From the NCBI GenBank assembly GCA_014762625.1, contig JABURQ010000098.1, forward strand, positions 1 to 64,000: a stretch of 64,000 bases of DNA. The letters run 5' to 3'. The notes beneath the pieces were generated by a model that worked only from the letters and a program-made list of their open reading frames with translations, made no database searches and was not told the DNA's origin. A program made the translations under genes and the position numbers. Origin of the DNA: Planctomycetaceae bacterium (lineage in GTDB: Bacteria; Planctomycetota; Planctomycetia; Planctomycetales; Planctomycetaceae). Below, in pieces: positions 48,861-63,159 of the stretch; position 1 is the stretch's first letter; each line of letters begins with the position of its first letter.

Positions 48861-51692
48861 TCAGTCGGCCATCGCGGTTTTGGAGGAGGCGGTCGCTTCC
48901 TTCAATTTTTCCAGCAGTGTCCCCTGAGAATATTTATCACGAATGACGATCGGCTTCTGGGGATTGTCGCCGGGAAAGATGACAGTGAGCGGCACGCTGA
49001 TCGAATCAAATTTCTTCAGCCAGGCTTTGAGATGCGGATCTTCATTCGAGAAGTCTGCATAGAGAGGGACGATCCCCTTTTCCTTGACGAGCTTTAACGT
49101 CTCGGCAGTGTTGAGTACCGAATATTCCGGCTGCTTCGCCAACAAGTTCCAGTCTGCTCCGAAATGGAGTAAGACAGTTTTTTGATTGTTCAGCGCTGCT
49201 TGTAGTTCCTGATCTGAGAAATCACGCCAAGGTAATTTGCTTGTTTGAGGGATTTTGGCAGTCTGAGAAGCGGCAGTCGCTTCCCTTAGCTTTTCCAGCA
49301 AGTAGGACTGGGAATATTTGTCGCGGATGACAATTGGCTTTTGAGGATTGTCGCCGGGAAAGATGACGGTGAGCGGTACGCTGATCGAATCAAACTTCTT
49401 CAGCCACGCTTTGAGATGCGGATCTTCGTTGGTGAAGTCGGCATAGAGCGGCACGATACCTTCTTGATTGACCAGTGCCTGGGTCTCTTCGGTATTGAGG
49501 GCATTGCGCTCGTTTTGTTTGCAGACCAGGCACCAGTCTGCCGTGAAGTCAACGAGTACGGTTTTCTTCTGACGGAGTGCCGATTGCAGCGTGCTGTCGG
49601 TGAAGTCTCGCCAGGGTAACCCGTGCTCCCCGTGATCGCGCTGGGAGGCCTTGTGTTTGGAGGTCGTGTTTTCCTGAGGACTTTTGGAGGTGCCGGCGAG
49701 AGATTTTTGTGTCGGCGAACTGGTTGGTTCAGTGGTGACTACCGAGTTGGCGTTCGACGGCATCTGGCTGATGCCGAAATAGACAATGCCTGAAGTGACG
49801 CAGGCCGCGAGAATGCGCACGCGATTTTTGTGAACGATATGAGTGGTCGAATCGTAAAGGTTGCCGACCATCCATAATCCGAATGCGAGTCCCATCATCA
49901 TGATCATCACCGGAATGATCAGTTCGGAGCCGGTGTACGAGATGATCCAGATGACCGCTCCCATCAGCGCGAACCCGGAGATCTCCTTGAAGCGAATCAT
50001 CCAGGCTCCCGGTTTGGGAAGCCATTTGATCGTACTCGGGAAGATGCCCGCCAACAGGTACGGCGACGCCATGCCCAGTCCCATCACTCCCCAGATCAGA
50101 AAGATGATGTGTGTCTCCTGTTTGACCGACCAGCCGAGCGTGGCTCCCATCAACGGGCCGCTACAGGGAGTTGCCAGAAACGTGGCGAAAATCCCGGTCA
50201 GAAACGCACCGGTGAGACCTTCTTTCTGCGTCCCGCCAGCCGCCAGTCCGGGGATTGGAATTTCAAAAACACCCAGCAAACTCAGGCCCATTACAAAGAC
50301 CAGACAGGCCATAAAAATATTGAATTCCGCTTTCTGGAAGAGCGAACCCCACCCCATTTCCAGAAACGCCGCCAAAGCCGCCAGACTCAGAAAGACGGCA
50401 ATCACACCGAGCGAATAGGAGAGATTCAATTGAAAGATTCGAGCGCGGTTTTCCCCCGCCTGTTTGACGAAACTGAGGATCTTGATCGCCAGGACCGGCA
50501 ACACGCACGGCATGACATTCAAAATCAAACCGCCCAAAAAAGCATAAACCAGATACCAACCCAGGCCAGCAGATTCTTCCTCCATTTCAAATTCACCAAA
50601 CTCAATCGGTTCGACCGTTTTCATTGCTGAAATCGGTTGAGCGGCGGAGAGCTGCCCCAATGCGAACCGCTGCTCCTGAGGGGGGAGACATTTCTGATCG
50701 GTACAGGTTTGATAGATAATCGCTCCCTGAATACCAAAACTGTTCTGGTCGGCTGACTCATCCACCAGAAATTTCCGCGTCCAGGTAACCGAGCCATCGA
50801 ATAGATGCTGTTCGAAAGAAATTCCTTTCGCGGGTTCGTTCTGCTTGATTTCGGGTTCGACGTTCGGGACGAAGTTTTCGTCGAGAGCAACCAATCCCTG
50901 AAAACTTTCCAGCAGAAATTCGGTCGGCGTTCCTCCGGGTCCCTCTTCCTGAGATTGGGCATAAGCATGCCAACCGGCATCGAGATCCAGGCGAACGCTC
51001 AACGTCACCTCGTCTCCCGGAGCGGCGTCAATCGGAGAAAATGCGATGGTGAAGGCGGAAGGTCCGGGCTTGCCGAGAACCAGGGGGCGTCCGTGGACAG
51101 AATAGCTGACCAGATCGCTAGGGACGGCGGAGGAATCGACGGCAAGTGAGTGTTGAATTTCGTTGCTGTAAGGAATGCAGTTGTCATCATTGCAGACCTG
51201 ATAGCGGATTTTCCCCGAGAATTTGGCTTCAGAATTATTGGGAAGGAGGCGATATTTTCGGCTCCAGGTCACTTCCTGTTTGAACTTTTCCACTTCCTGC
51301 TCGAACAGGGGTTCAAACACGGCTTTCGGTTCATGGTCGGGTAGAAACGCGTCATCAACAGGGACTGCTCCCGAAACTTCGGAGAGTGAAATCACCGTTC
51401 GTCCGCTGAACTTGCGGCTCTGAGAGTAGGTATGCGAACCGGGAGGTATGGTGAGATGCAGTTTCATCGTCACCACGTCTCCCGGTTTGGAGTTCTCGGG
51501 AGCTTCGAGTGTCGATGTGAATTCGGGTTCTGCTTTGGAGCCCGATTTCTTTGTTTTGCCACTCCCCAGATTCAGGTCGAGGTCTAGACCCGGTTGTTCG
51601 AGCTTGAACAGTTCGGGAACCTGCTCATCCTGGGCGACAAGGGAAGAACTTAAAAAGAAGACAACCGAGACTGTGACGAGAATGGTTCTCAT
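48861..51692 (-). CDS. DsbD-type thiol:disulfide reductase with duplicated domains
   Basis: Encodes 943 residues from the ATG at 51692 (the 17 upstream codons do not look like a signal). A signal peptide ends SLVAQ. Two DsbD-alpha-like domains follow, each with a Cys pair (C167/C172 and C330/C335). The membrane domain holds the conserved C396 (NVMPCVLPV) and C510 (ATPCSGP). Two tandem C-terminal thioredoxin domains follow: the first has CLVC (C721, C724), the second has Asn and Ala at those positions (N849, A852). DsbD carries electrons from the cytoplasm across the membrane to periplasmic thiols. The second thioredoxin domain is predicted inactive. Confidence 0.93.
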   Translation of the reverse strand: MRTILVTVSVVFFLSSSLVAQDEQVPELFKLEQPGLDLDLNLGSGKTKKSGSKAEPEFTSTLEAPENSKPGDVVTMKLHLTIPPGSHTYSQSRKFSGRTVISLSEVSGAVPVDDAFLPDHEPKAVFEPLFEQEVEKFKQEVTWSRKYRLLPNNSEAKFSGKIRYQVCNDDNCIPYSNEIQHSLAVDSSAVPSDLVSYSVHGRPLVLGKPGPSAFTIAFSPIDAAPGDEVTLSVRLDLDAGWHAYAQSQEEGPGGTPTEFLLESFQGLVALDENFVPNVEPEIKQNEPAKGISFEQHLFDGSVTWTRKFLVDESADQNSFGIQGAIIYQTCTDQKCLPPQEQRFALGQLSAAQPISAMKTVEPIEFGEFEMEEESAGLGWYLVYAFLGGLILNVMPCVLPVLAIKILSFVKQAGENRARIFQLNLSYSLGVIAVFLSLAALAAFLEMGWGSLFQKAEFNIFMACLVFVMGLSLLGVFEIPIPGLAAGGTQKEGLTGAFLTGIFATFLATPCSGPLMGATLGWSVKQETHIIFLIWGVMGLGMASPYLLAGIFPSTIKWLPKPGAWMIRFKEISGFALMGAVIWIISYTGSELIIPVMIMMMGLAFGLWMVGNLYDSTTHIVHKNRVRILAACVTSGIVYFGISQMPSNANSVVTTEPTSSPTQKSLAGTSKSPQENTTSKHKASQRDHGEHGLPWRDFTDSTLQSALRQKKTVLVDFTADWCLVCKQNERNALNTEETQALVNQEGIVPLYADFTNEDPHLKAWLKKFDSISVPLTVIFPGDNPQKPIVIRDKYSQSYLLEKLREATAASQTAKIPQTSKLPWRDFSDQELQAALNNQKTVLLHFGADWNLLAKQPEYSVLNTAETLKLVKEKGIVPLYADFSNEDPHLKAWLKKFDSISVPLTVIFPGDNPQKPIVIRDKYSQGTLLEKLKEATASSKTAMAD
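48870..49619 (-). repeat. Tandem duplication of the thioredoxin domain
   Basis: Two direct repeats of about 366 bases (48870-49235 and 49254-49619), with a period of 384 bases (128 codons). In the stretch around residues 750-795 and 878-923 only one residue differs (Thr/Ser). The DNA is also nearly identical there, whereas the CxxC region has diverged. Confidence 0.9.
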
Positions 51693-52269
51693 GGTCAACC
51701 TGATTTGGAATACGGTGGGAATGAGTCGTGGAGGAAGGATCACACTTTCTTACGTTGCGAACCGGCAAGATCTTTGATGTCGGGTCCTACGAGATCTTGA
51801 TTATTATCGACTTTGAAGCTGGATTCATCTGTGAGGTAAGCAACAAACCGAGATCGCCAACATCGAAAAGGATAGACGATTCGCAAATAATACGACAATA
51901 GGGGTTTAGGTCAAATTCGGATCGAGAACTCTCTGGCTACGCGGCGAAATACCATCGGTCAATATGCTTCCCGGCAGCGTTGAACTGGACGCGCTATGGG
52001 AAAAGCTTTTCTGATGGTGGTCGTTTTGTGGGAAAGTAAACTGTTTCAATCCTTAAAGTGTTCTCCGGAAAGAGAAAAGAGCGTTTCACATCTGTGGAGA
52101 CAGTTGACAGAACCCCCTGCTGTCTGCCTAATAAAGATTCAACTTCTTTATCGGTAACGTGTTATCGAATTTGCGAGACCGCGTTGGAAACCGGTCGAAA
52201 AGAAGGTTCACTCCTCGATGTTTCCTGCCACACCCGGCGGACGCCGTCGATCCGCCGCAAACTAAGATC
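51693..52269. other. Long divergent intergenic region upstream of tatC
   Basis: This 577-base gap separates the dsbD-like gene (minus) from tatC (plus). TTGACA (52104-52109) with TAATAA (52129-52134), 19 bases apart, is a candidate tatC promoter. I see no convincing small gene in the rest. Confidence 0.4.
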
Positions 52270-58351: not shown

Positions 58352-58735
58352 ATGACAACGTCCTCGTTAAAGCGGCCTCAGCATCCGCGCAGTGCATACA
58401 AGTTTGTGTTTGATGCTCTCAATCACACACAGTTGAAGATACACTCTCGACGAGCCCAAGAGGGAGAAGAGTCTCATATCTCCGGCCCCGAATTGCTGGA
58501 AGGGATTCGCAAGCTGGCCCTCAAACAGTTTGGCCTGATGGCGACGACCGTGTTTCACCAGTGGGGTATTGATACGACTGAAGACTTCGGTCGGCTGGTA
58601 TTCGAGTTGATCGAACGCGGTGAAATGAAAAAGAATGAGACTGACTGCCTGTCTGATTTCTGCGGTATCTACTCGTTTGAAGAAGAATTTGATCGCAAGT
58701 ATCGCATTAATACTTCCATCGCTTTCGAAGACTGA
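58352..58735 (+). CDS. Minf_1886-family protein
   Basis: Encodes 127 residues with no signal peptide or membrane segment. Blocks such as SAYKFVFDAL, GPELLEGIRKLALKQFG, TVFHQWGIDTTEDFGRLVFELIE and NETDCLSDF match the Minf_1886 family found in Verrucomicrobia, Planctomycetes and relatives. Its function is unknown. The gene lies 213 bases after ricT and 20 bases before the small membrane-protein gene, with which it is likely co-transcribed. Confidence 0.85.
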   Translation: MTTSSLKRPQHPRSAYKFVFDALNHTQLKIHSRRAQEGEESHISGPELLEGIRKLALKQFGLMATTVFHQWGIDTTEDFGRLVFELIERGEMKKNETDCLSDFCGIYSFEEEFDRKYRINTSIAFED

Positions 58736-58755
58736 TCCAGCCAGAATCCTTGCTC

Positions 58756-59226
58756 ATGGATGACTCGAAGACCGACGGCGAATCTTCACAGACAACCAGA
58801 CGATCTTCGCCGTTATTTTGGGTTGTGTCGATTCTCTTTCTCGGCTATGCGATCTTACTGATCGTCCTGGCGATCTTGACATCCAATCCGATTCTAATCA
58901 GCCCGCGTCAACTACAGCAATCGGATTTGATCGTGCACGGGAAAGTGATTTCCATTGACGAGGGCGGCGTCACGTTCCACGTGGAAGAAGTTTTTCGGGG
59001 AGAGAACGTCCCCGAGTCGATTCGCGTCAGAAGCCTCAACCCAGAATCATTGGCCGCAGGTCAGGAATGGCTAGTGCCGTTGAGGATTGTGGGAAGTGAA
59101 GAGTATCGGGTGACCCCTTTGAACTCAGATCGTCGGAATCAGCCGACCGCATTGATTTATCCTGCCGATCCTTCCTCAATTGCCAATCTAAAATCGCGGC
59201 TTTCCTCCGGGGAACTCTCTCCTTAG
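58756..59226 (+). CDS. Small membrane protein with C-terminal beta domain
   Basis: Encodes 156 residues from the ATG at 58756. A polar N-terminus is followed by a membrane segment at about 21-43. The remaining part (SDLIVHGKVISIDEGGVTFHVEEVFRGENVP) looks like a small beta domain with no name I recognise. It sits between the Minf_1886 gene and the kinase-caspase gene, on the same strand, with gaps of 20 and 107 bases. Confidence 0.7.
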   Translation: MDDSKTDGESSQTTRRSSPLFWVVSILFLGYAILLIVLAILTSNPILISPRQLQQSDLIVHGKVISIDEGGVTFHVEEVFRGENVPESIRVRSLNPESLAAGQEWLVPLRIVGSEEYRVTPLNSDRRNQPTALIYPADPSSIANLKSRLSSGELSP

Positions 59227-59333
59227 AATGGAGGACTGTCTCCTCGCAAATTCTCAAACGCGATGGAGTTATGTCCTTCGGGAGTTTTTTGAGTCATAGA
59301 GTGTTGTCCTCGGCGGTTGCGGGAGAAATGTGA

Positions 59334-62021
59334 GTGAGTTTGGAAGATCGGTATCAACTTCTGGAAAAAATCGGTACGGGAAGCTACGCCACCGTCTTCC
59401 GTGCCCGTGACCTGGATTTAGGCCGTGAGGTTGCCATACGTCAGGTGAATGAAAAATACCTGGCGAATCCGGACCAGCTCGAACGCTATTGGCAGGAAGC
59501 GCAACTGCTGGCCTCTCTCCAGCACCCCAATATTGTGACCCTGTTCGATCTGGATCGGGAAAAAGGGTGGGTGATTCTTGAATTGATGCAGGCGAGCTTG
59601 AAGGACCGCGTCCGCGATCGTCAGTTGGACCTGAAATCGCTGCGGACGACGTTGGCCCATAGCTTACGGGCGCTCAAATACCTGCACTCGCAAGGCATCG
59701 TTCACGGAGATATTAAACCCTCGAACTTGATGCTCGATGCTCGACGTCGGATCAAGTTAGGGGATTTCGGTCTCGCTCGACGTGCGAGCGACGCCGAGGG
59801 TGAATTACTCAAAGGAACGACGAAATACATGGCGCCGGAAACGGTCTCGGATGATTTCGGCGAGATCGGTCCCGCCAGCGACCTTTATTCTCTTGGCTTC
59901 AGCGCTTACGAACTCCTCTGCGGCAGTAATTTCGAATCCCTCTTTCCCGGATTGTCGGCGTTCGGCAGCGATGAGCAAATCGCCTGGATGATGTGGCACG
60001 CCGCACCTGACCGAAAGTTGCCTGAGATTCGTCGCGTTCTGGAAGGAGTTCCCGAGGACCTGCAAAAAGTCATTCAGAAGCTGACAGCCAAGGACCAAAA
60101 GGACCGATACAAATCGGCTGATGAGGCAATGGCGGATCTCGACATCGATTCGAATCTGACCAGTGTCCGTCCCGCTATCGAACCGACGGAATCCGAAACA
60201 TCCGGCGAGGAAAAGCAGGAAAGCGGGCGAACGCCCGAAGAGAAAAAACGCCTGATGTTGATCGCGGGCGTGTTTGCAATCTCCATGATCATGTCGCTGG
60301 TAATGCTGTTTATGGGGGGTGGTGGAGACAATTCGGGGGGAGGAGATGCTTCCGGCCCACCGCAGTTAATCGGCTACGTTCGCGATGTCGATCCTGAGAG
60401 CGGTGTGATTATTTATAACGATCGCGATTTTCGCCGCGCCGATGAGATCAAGGTCGGGACGTCGCCTCTGATTTATTTTCGTAACAACGATGAGAATATC
60501 CTTCTGCGGGAAATTCAGAAGAACGATCGCATCACCGTCGAAAAGAAACAGGTTGGTGAGGATGAGTACCAGATTTCGATCACCGTCGATCGTCCCGAAA
60601 CCACCTACGGGAGTCTGGTGAGCCGCGATTTGCAAAATAACCGGATTACCATCGAAATTCAGGAGGGCCCCGAACGAGGTAATCTCTCGCTGCGAGTTCC
60701 CGAACGATCGCGCATCAAAATCAATAATCAGACCAAGAAGCTGGTGGAACTCGAAGAGGGCGATACCGTTCGCATTCGACATTTTCCCGAGACAACCGGT
60801 AAAACGGGACGCGTCGTGAGTGAGCTAATCGCTCTTCGTCCGGAGGAAATGACCGGATATATTTCCAATCTCAAACAGAGTGATCCCCCCGAACTTTCCG
60901 TTCGCTTCGGAAAAGCTTCATCATCGGCAACCGCTACCAGCCTTCCTTTGGCGGAGGACGTCAAAATCTTTCAAGCAGGATCCGCCGGAAGTCGAACTCC
61001 ACTGGAACTGTCGGACCTCGAAGAAGGAGACCGCGTTCGTATCAATTACGATGTCGAGATACGTGAGATTGTCGTGACGCGGGAAGATCGCCAGACCTCG
61101 GGAGTAATTCGCGAGATCGACGGTCAGCAGTTGACCATCTCGCAGGATAACGGTGAATTGATCGATCTCGATCTGAATGATCAGACGGAAGTCACTATCA
61201 ACACCGAAAACGCCGCGCCTGATGACTTGCGGGTCTTCGATCGGATTATTTTAACGTGGGATGATTCCGGCGAGTCGGCGCGTGTGGTCGCGATCGATGG
61301 AAAACGACCCGTTCTGAATAATCGCTGGGCGATTCTGATCGCTAATGAATCGTATTCAGACCGTTCCCTGATTCCTGCCAGAAACGCAGTCTCCGACATG
61401 CAAATGCTCAAGTCGGCTCTCGTTAAACGTTATGCATTCTCCGAGGATCGCATTCTCGTGCTGGTGGATGAGAACAAAGCCGACATCCTCAAAACACTCC
61501 AGGAGACCGTTGCTCTGACACGGCGAGATTCTCAGGTGTTGGTTTTCGTGAAAGGCCATGCTTATCGCGGTCCCGATGAGAATCTCTACCTGGCGGTGAA
61601 GAATACCAACAGCGACCAGCTGGCGACTACCGGCTTGCCTTTGTTGGAATTATTGCGTCCTTTGGAAGAGGCGACTTCCTCCGACAAGTTCCTGATGCTG
61701 GAAGTTTGTAGCGCGGAGGCCGGCAAGGATTTGGCGAACCAGCCCTCTTCCGGGGAAGCTCTTCAATATCTGGCTCCTGCGGCGAAATCAACCACTATTA
61801 TTGCCGCCTGTCAGCCGAACCAGAAGAGTTTCGAGTCTCCGAAAGGAGACGCCGGTATCTTTGCTCTTTGCCTGTCGGAGGCGTTTCGCGGAGCGGCGGA
61901 TACCGACAAAAGTATCAAACTTAGTGCGGATGAACTGATGAATTTTCTAAATGATTGCTTGCACAACAAAGCCCCTTCCGGGCAAACTCAAACTCCCGCC
62001 ATCCACCGCCCCGCGCCCTAA
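59334..62021 (+). CDS. Transmembrane Ser/Thr kinase-caspase fusion protein
   Basis: Encodes 895 residues from a GTG start with GGGAG upstream. Residues about 5-270 are a Ser/Thr kinase: Gly loop GTGSY (14-18), Glu at 55, HGDIKPSN (124-131), DFG (144-146) and APE (167-169). The usual Lys of the VAIK motif is Arg (VAIR, R36). A membrane segment lies at about 306-327. Residues about 345-655 are several small beta domains, each with a pattern like LEEGDRVRI, reminiscent of DUF5666 repeats. Residues about 660-895 are a caspase-like (C14) domain with the His in VKGHAY (H742) and Cys in LEVCSAE (C792). The kinase would be cytoplasmic and the protease domain extracytoplasmic. Confidence 0.9.
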   Translation: MSLEDRYQLLEKIGTGSYATVFRARDLDLGREVAIRQVNEKYLANPDQLERYWQEAQLLASLQHPNIVTLFDLDREKGWVILELMQASLKDRVRDRQLDLKSLRTTLAHSLRALKYLHSQGIVHGDIKPSNLMLDARRRIKLGDFGLARRASDAEGELLKGTTKYMAPETVSDDFGEIGPASDLYSLGFSAYELLCGSNFESLFPGLSAFGSDEQIAWMMWHAAPDRKLPEIRRVLEGVPEDLQKVIQKLTAKDQKDRYKSADEAMADLDIDSNLTSVRPAIEPTESETSGEEKQESGRTPEEKKRLMLIAGVFAISMIMSLVMLFMGGGGDNSGGGDASGPPQLIGYVRDVDPESGVIIYNDRDFRRADEIKVGTSPLIYFRNNDENILLREIQKNDRITVEKKQVGEDEYQISITVDRPETTYGSLVSRDLQNNRITIEIQEGPERGNLSLRVPERSRIKINNQTKKLVELEEGDTVRIRHFPETTGKTGRVVSELIALRPEEMTGYISNLKQSDPPELSVRFGKASSSATATSLPLAEDVKIFQAGSAGSRTPLELSDLEEGDRVRINYDVEIREIVVTREDRQTSGVIREIDGQQLTISQDNGELIDLDLNDQTEVTINTENAAPDDLRVFDRIILTWDDSGESARVVAIDGKRPVLNNRWAILIANESYSDRSLIPARNAVSDMQMLKSALVKRYAFSEDRILVLVDENKADILKTLQETVALTRRDSQVLVFVKGHAYRGPDENLYLAVKNTNSDQLATTGLPLLELLRPLEEATSSDKFLMLEVCSAEAGKDLANQPSSGEALQYLAPAAKSTTIIAACQPNQKSFESPKGDAGIFALCLSEAFRGAADTDKSIKLSADELMNFLNDCLHNKAPSGQTQTPAIHRPAP

Positions 62022-62082
62022 CTTTCCCCCTATCGAACTCGATATTCTGAATTCAACTGAATTGAAATCACGAGATGACGTT

Positions 62083-63159
62083 ATGAAATTGACCCTGATT
62101 TGTGCCTCACTTGTTTTGGCCGCGACTTCTGTTTTCGGCCAGTCTCCCGCCACAGAACCTCCGGGAGTGGAGTATCTCGAACTGACCGAGCTGGAATCGA
62201 CTCATCTGGAGAACCTGCGTCAGGTCACGTTCGGTCTGCCTCGCGCAGGGGAAGGTTATTTTTCGCCGGACGGAGAATGGATCGTTTATCAGGCCTATCC
62301 GGTCGGTTATCCCTTCTATCAGATCTACGTTCAGAAACTGGACGAACGCGTTCCGCGTCGTATCAGCACGGGACGCGGGAGGACCACCTGCGCCTATTTC
62401 ACTCCCGACATGAAATCGATCATGTTTGCGTCATCGCACTCCGATCCCGACATCGCCGAGACGGAATCCAAAGCTCGAGAACTGGCGGCTGCGGGAGGAC
62501 GACGACGTTACGAGTGGGATTTCGATCCCCATATGGAAATCTATGTGACACCAATCAACGGGACCGGACTCACGCGACTGACCCATTCCGAAGGGTACGA
62601 CGCGGAGGGCAGCTATTCCTCCGACGGCAAGGAAATTGTCTTTACGTCGACTCGAGATGGAGACCCCGATATTTACATCATGGGTGCGGACGGTGGCAAT
62701 GTGCGGCAAATTGTGAATCAGCCGGGCTACGACGGCGGTCCTTTTTTCTCTCCCGACGACAAATGGATCATTTTTCGCAGCGACCGCGAAGAGGAGGACA
62801 TGCTGCAAGTCAGAGCGGTTTCTGTGGACGGCAAGCACGATATCCGTCTGACCGACAATCTGAAACAGGTCAACTGGTGCCCCTACTTTCATCCGAGCGG
62901 AGACTACATCATCTGGTCGGGAGCCGATTATTCCCGAGGTCCGCGGGGGGCGAACTTCGATCTGTGGACCATGGAGGTTGATTGGACCGACTCCGAATTT
63001 CATGGCGGCAAAGTGACGCAAATCACCGATCACGAAGCTGCCGACGTGCTGCCCGTTTTCAGTCCGGATGGAACCAAACTGATGTGGACGGCCACCAAAC
63101 GGGGGCCGGACGGATCGGCTCAACTTTTCATTGCGGATTGGAAACGCGGCCAGAAGTAA
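62083..63159 (+). CDS. Secreted TolB-like beta-propeller protein
   Basis: Encodes 358 residues from the ATG at 62083; the long upstream extension in frame overlaps the kinase-caspase gene and is not used. A signal peptide ends SVFGQ (residue 20). Residues about 55-350 carry PD40/TolB-type blades, each with a SPDG-type turn (FSPDGEWIVYQ, YSSDGKEIVFTSTRDG, FSPDDKWIIF, FSPDGTKLMWTAT). Such proteins often bind substrates outside the cell or sit in the cell envelope. No enzymatic motif is present. It starts 62 bases after the kinase-caspase stop and may be co-transcribed. Confidence 0.85.
   Translation: MKLTLICASLVLAATSVFGQSPATEPPGVEYLELTELESTHLENLRQVTFGLPRAGEGYFSPDGEWIVYQAYPVGYPFYQIYVQKLDERVPRRISTGRGRTTCAYFTPDMKSIMFASSHSDPDIAETESKARELAAAGGRRRYEWDFDPHMEIYVTPINGTGLTRLTHSEGYDAEGSYSSDGKEIVFTSTRDGDPDIYIMGADGGNVRQIVNQPGYDGGPFFSPDDKWIIFRSDREEEDMLQVRAVSVDGKHDIRLTDNLKQVNWCPYFHPSGDYIIWSGADYSRGPRGANFDLWTMEVDWTDSEFHGGKVTQITDHEAADVLPVFSPDGTKLMWTATKRGPDGSAQLFIADWKRGQK

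Follow-up and report, generated by a model that had tools for sequence, protein, structure and literature searches.

What does a protein that carries a kinase at one end and a caspase fold at the other do for a planctomycete? Such a protein is encoded in a 64,000-nucleotide stretch of a Planctomycetaceae bacterium genome (hereafter the window), by a gene at 59334-62021 on the + strand that begins with a GTG codon and specifies 895 aa: a kinase, a membrane helix, four OB-like barrels and a caspase fold. A first-pass annotation had read it as a link from phosphorylation-type sensing on one side of the membrane to protease activity on the other. We consider a receptor for pilus control more likely than a cell-death protease, because the protease site is usually broken among orthologues and the gene almost always occurs with one type of Tad pilus.

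Pfam scanning of the protein, the domain-architecture search that the annotation had called for, placed Pkinase at residues 7-266 (59352-60131; 164 bits) and Peptidase_C14 at residues 664-892 (61323-62009; 46 bits against a cut-off of 21.4), both over cut-off. The kinase domain is of the Hanks Ser/Thr type, its closest solved relative being PknB (E 1e-32). A single membrane helix was read from the sequence alone at approximately residues 307-327 (60252-60314), with Lys and Arg on the kinase side; the kinase is accordingly placed in the cytoplasm by prediction, and the OB-like barrels and caspase fold would be periplasmic. The earlier description of a single-pass fusion, its kinase in the cytoplasm and its caspase fold on the far side of the membrane, was thus anatomically right, for the domains by Pfam and the structural model and for the sidedness by sequence. 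The AlphaFold2 model of residues 340-895 (pLDDT 93, pTM 0.83) resolves the approximately 310 residues of beta structure between the helix and the caspase domain, formerly called several beta repeats, into four tandem barrels (approximately residues 344-657; 60363-61304). Foldseek gave weak S1/cold-shock-type OB matches for this part, and Pfam gave weak CusF/DUF5666 matches for that of relatives. For the caspase part, structural superposition gave Z 19-21 with caspases and metacaspases, and Foldseek gave a match to MALT1 (E 2.8e-9); His742 (codon at 61557-61559) and Cys792 (61707-61709) of this part align with the MALT1 catalytic pair. These scores, with the model's pLDDT, rule out a caspase part lacking the true fold. 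A genome-wide Pfam C14 search was negative and was set aside as insensitive here, given the score of the single-protein scan. The residues named by the annotation (R36, H124-G-D126, H742 and C792) are all present, and its remark that the exact layout could not be named is supported, in that no family in the libraries searched matched the full length.

We found full-length or nearly full-length orthologues in 47 of 101 genomes in a search of the same taxonomic family, separated from ordinary kinases by a gap in E-value (at most 1e-148 for the orthologues, at least 1e-59 for the others). A second collection comprised 80 loci, titled Planctomycetaceae, Schlesneria, Planctomicrobium, Pirellulales, Thermoguttaceae and others. 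The genomes are mostly metagenome assemblies. Merging of duplicates left 91 distinct proteins, all from Planctomycetia; 80 of these bear the caspase domain and are the basis of the dyad counts below. Dozens of genomes preserve the complete fusion, so it is a single gene, old and stable, and a mis-joined pair of genes is ruled out. Seven sequences form a clade without the caspase part that keeps the kinase and OB barrels (L084, L090-L092, L094, L100 and L105); in most of these the Tad cluster described below still adjoins the gene. Many other orthologues (L058, L067, L074 and others) have approximately 235 additional residues after the caspase part, all helical in the model and absent in the window's lineage; Pfam found no match to this extension, and in structure searches the caspase part took up the hits.

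Only 11 of the 80 caspase-bearing orthologues (14%) have both residues of the His-Cys dyad, a distribution that takes seven or more changes on the tree. His occupies the 742 column in 57 and Cys the 792 column in 14. The Cys column has changed 31 times on the tree, close to the domain median of 26, whereas Gly853, Asp856, Glu867 and Gln886 have changed once or twice each. For comparison we used 24 other planctomycete caspases, retrieved with the family's profile, of which 23 have the His and 23 the Cys. Because the Cys column behaves as an average one while fold residues are kept, and because related caspases retain their Cys, selection holds the fold and not the nucleophile; the ectodomain is more likely non-proteolytic in most of the family. 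Protease activity as the general output, which the first-pass annotation had favored, fits poorly with these counts. An EF-hand-like 12-residue loop, D-x-D-x-S...E (residues 856-867; 61899-61934), whose pattern is found in 72 of the 80, persists in 63 of the 69 orthologues with a broken dyad and also in most of the 24 related caspases, and may bind calcium. Many orthologues contain the stretch LLLDCSH..., which could suggest a catalytic Cys that has moved; it is more simply taken as what is left of a DCC motif, found in six of the 24 related caspases, after change of the catalytic Cys. All three genomes of the window's genus have the His, the Cys and an acidic S1-type residue (E790). Protease activity is possible in this genus, since both dyad residues are kept there.

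In the family alignment, constraint is strongest in the kinase domain. Gly16, Glu55, His124, Asp126, Asn131 and the DFG motif (residues 144-146; 59763-59771) are invariant among the 91 sequences. The window kinase thus has, beside its Pkinase score, the Gly loop, alpha-C Glu, catalytic Asp, Asn and DFG expected of a Hanks-type fold, and lacks two residues of typical catalysis, with Arg for the VAIK Lys and HGD for HRD. These two oddities, which the annotation had joined as one unusual active site, have different standing. HGD (residues 124-126; 59703-59711) is the family rule, with His and Asp in all 91 and Gly in 90; among the window genome's own kinases it is rare, the 26 readable ones comprising 24 HRD, one HSD and one HGD. 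Arg36 (59439-59441) does stand as an oddity, at the level of the genus: Lys is found in 88 of 91 orthologues and Arg in the other three, which coincide with the three genomes of the window's genus. All three encode it by CGT and were separately assembled, so sequencing error is ruled out. Decay of the kinase in the genus was likewise rejected, as the domain is 90-91% identical among its members and is not evolving faster. Nor was a WNK-like relocated Lys found that might compensate for Arg36; the kinase domain has no genus-specific Lys.

Tad pili function in adhesion and, in Myxococcus, also in contact-dependent killing. We examined the neighborhood of the kinase gene, and found Tad genes upstream on the same strand, with the kinase directly downstream, at 47 of the 66 loci with at least 2.5 kb of upstream DNA. 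The usual order is TadE-like, membrane protein, CpaB-like, FHA-TadA, TadB, TadC, FHA protein, kinase; Pfam identified T2SSE plus FHA, two T2SSF proteins and FHA. This Tad/Flp cluster therefore has two FHA proteins, one of them fused to the motor TadA/CpaF, and the second FHA gene is present in 43 of the 47 kinase genomes. T6SS core genes were sought beside the kinase and none were found, the neighbors at relatives' loci being Tad genes. More distant Tad clusters (L175, L177 and L178) also pair FHA-TadA with an FHA-like protein, and PEGA-domain membrane kinases occur in two of them, L175 and L178, a pattern that suggests that there may be a general kinase-FHA-Tad module with exchangeable sensors.

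At 19 of the 66 loci, the window's genus included, the gene lies away from Tad genes. The window genome has its cluster (A24 peptidase, TadE, TadG-like, FHA-TadA, TadB, TadC and FHA-like protein) on contig C36 and its kinase on C158, in a neighborhood common only to the genus. There the kinase is part of a same-strand run (58352-63159) with a 127-aa protein, a 158-aa single-helix protein and a PD40 propeller protein; neither these nor a neighboring PSP1 protein qualify as conserved partners, being shared almost only within the genus. Elsewhere in the window (48861-51743, - strand) is a DsbD-like protein that ends in two near-identical tandem thioredoxin-like domains, of which the first has CxxC (WCLVCKQ) and the second, WNLLAKQ, does not. 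In the TadA FHA domain of the window's genus, Ala replaces the usual phosphate-binding Ser, a hint only; loss of this Ser is not specific to the Arg36 lineage, and the residue also varies where the kinase is intact. With the gene out of the cluster and the VAIK Lys replaced by Arg, signaling in the window's genus may be weak or phosphorylation-independent.

Presence of the kinase was compared with that of the close FHA-TadA type, which occurs in 46 of the 101 genomes. Both are present in 45, the kinase only in two, FHA-TadA only in one, and neither in 53 (Fisher p 4.3e-25, a value that overstates the number of independent events because of shared ancestry). The three exceptions are incomplete genomes (64, 78 and 88% complete). 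TadA lacking FHA is nearly universal among these genomes and shows no such relation to the kinase. In genera g25 and g34 a genome has either both genes of the pair or neither, and the same holds for g27, with the reservation that its two negative genomes are incomplete; the association is therefore not only one of deep ancestry. Co-occurrence is linkage, and does not give direction or mechanism. Neighborhood and co-occurrence thus lead to the Tad pilus and away from the cell-death or immunity role first envisaged, a role also at odds with the clade that does without the caspase domain.

We propose that the protein is probably a receptor kinase of the Tad/Flp pilus, with FHA readers and a caspase-fold ectodomain that is mostly non-proteolytic. 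What the analysis establishes is the domains, the fold, the patterns of conservation, the gene linkage and the co-occurrence; topology, coupling through FHA, direction of control, ligand and calcium binding are inferred from these. The periplasmic OB-like barrels and caspase fold would sense or bind a ligand within the envelope or at the base of the pilus, possibly with calcium, the caspase fold serving mainly as a binding or sensing module and not as a protease. The signal would pass through the single helix to the cytoplasmic kinase, which in the family at large would phosphorylate threonines read by the two FHA partners of the Tad cluster, one of them fused to TadA/CpaF, and would thereby gate pilus assembly or retraction. 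The window's genus would depart from this scheme, its gene having left the cluster and its VAIK Lys having become Arg, with the His-Cys pair retained.

In type VI secretion, the PpkA kinase and Fha control assembly by docking of phosphothreonine on FHA (PMC3953482). There too a Ser/Thr kinase is linked genetically to the FHA proteins that belong to an envelope machine; here, however, the machine is a Tad pilus, the ectodomain is of OB-like barrels and a caspase fold, one FHA domain is on the motor ATPase, and no phosphatase gene was noted beside the kinase of the window family. Variants T7SSc-e of type VII secretion have kinase/FHA pairs, and the EssB pseudokinase faces non-canonical FHA domains of EssC (PMC11217815). 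The shared feature is a membrane-bound kinase or pseudokinase facing FHA domains of a machine ATPase; machine and ectodomain differ, and outside the window's genus our family keeps its catalytic residues mostly intact. We take a receptor kinase of an FHA-type Tad pilus to be the parsimonious reading. The partner has the N-terminal FHA and ATPase layout of class III CpaF/TadA, a class that a survey reports mostly in betaproteobacteria, with no mention of a kinase partner (PMC12019362), whereas in Planctomycetia FHA-TadA is paired with a specific kinase. PASTA kinases (PknB/Stk1) share the cytoplasmic kinase, single helix and external repeats, but Pfam found no PASTA repeats in the window protein, and the equivalog model scored 193.7 bits against a cut-off of 450. 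Dyad loss is known among bacterial caspase homologs and pseudo-orthocaspases, with 64% intact in Planctomycetes (PMC3501461; PMC6426788); our family has the same C14 fold with far higher loss and a fixed fusion to a receptor kinase.

Other explanations were weighed against the pilus receptor. A periplasmic caspase under kinase control, in which a genuine His-Cys protease with a role in stress, immunity or cell death is switched by the phosphorylation state or the conformation of the kinase, would account for the intact fold and for the dyad and E790 of all three genus genomes, and the closest non-fusion planctomycete caspases look catalytic by sequence; we consider it improbable nonetheless for a family in which the dyad is so seldom intact, the Cys column is unconstrained, one clade has lost the domain, and the tight tie is to a pilus cluster and not to defense or death genes. 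PADLOC matches to anti-phage kinases (mad6, PD-T4-6) fall within the kinase domain or just past it, as they would for any Hanks kinase. A general envelope-stress receptor kinase, tied to Tad by shared ancestry or gene neighborhood only, would explain the loci away from Tad genes, and planctomycetes are rich in kinases, with 37 kinase matches in the window genome; it is unlikely, although less so than the caspase switch, in that presence and absence track FHA-TadA even when the genes are unlinked, and within genera.

For the window's genus, the change from Lys to Arg may have ended catalysis, leaving a pseudokinase scaffold that binds FHA partners without phosphorylation, as EssB does with EssC (PMC11217815). 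This is a variant of the pilus-receptor reading at the level of one genus, not an alternative for the whole family. All three genomes have the Arg and none has a Lys that would compensate, and the FHA-TadA Ser is Ala in the same genus; yet E55, H124, D126, N131 and DFG are kept in a domain that is not fast-evolving, an Arg enzyme may have residual activity, and the FHA Ser varies also where the kinase Lys is intact. We hold such a scaffold possible, with some doubt. Most speculative, and least credible to us, is an extended form in which, across Planctomycetia, a membrane kinase would monitor the periplasm by way of a repurposed, calcium-binding pseudo-caspase and signal to the FHA-fused Tad motor. 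This pilus-control axis would be inverted in the window's genus, where a pseudokinase scaffold would exert phosphorylation-independent control over a membrane-tethered periplasmic protease, the caspase having retained its dyad.

A dedicated kinase for a Tad motor was not found in the literature searched, most subscription papers being outside its scope. The linkage to Tad genes supplies a concrete candidate for the partner of the FHA domain, so far unexplained, in class III CpaF motors. The family would also offer a clear example of a caspase fold retained for non-proteolytic use, in which natural intact and broken dyads can be compared, and its sequences amount to a natural experiment on Lys-to-Arg change in a conserved kinase.
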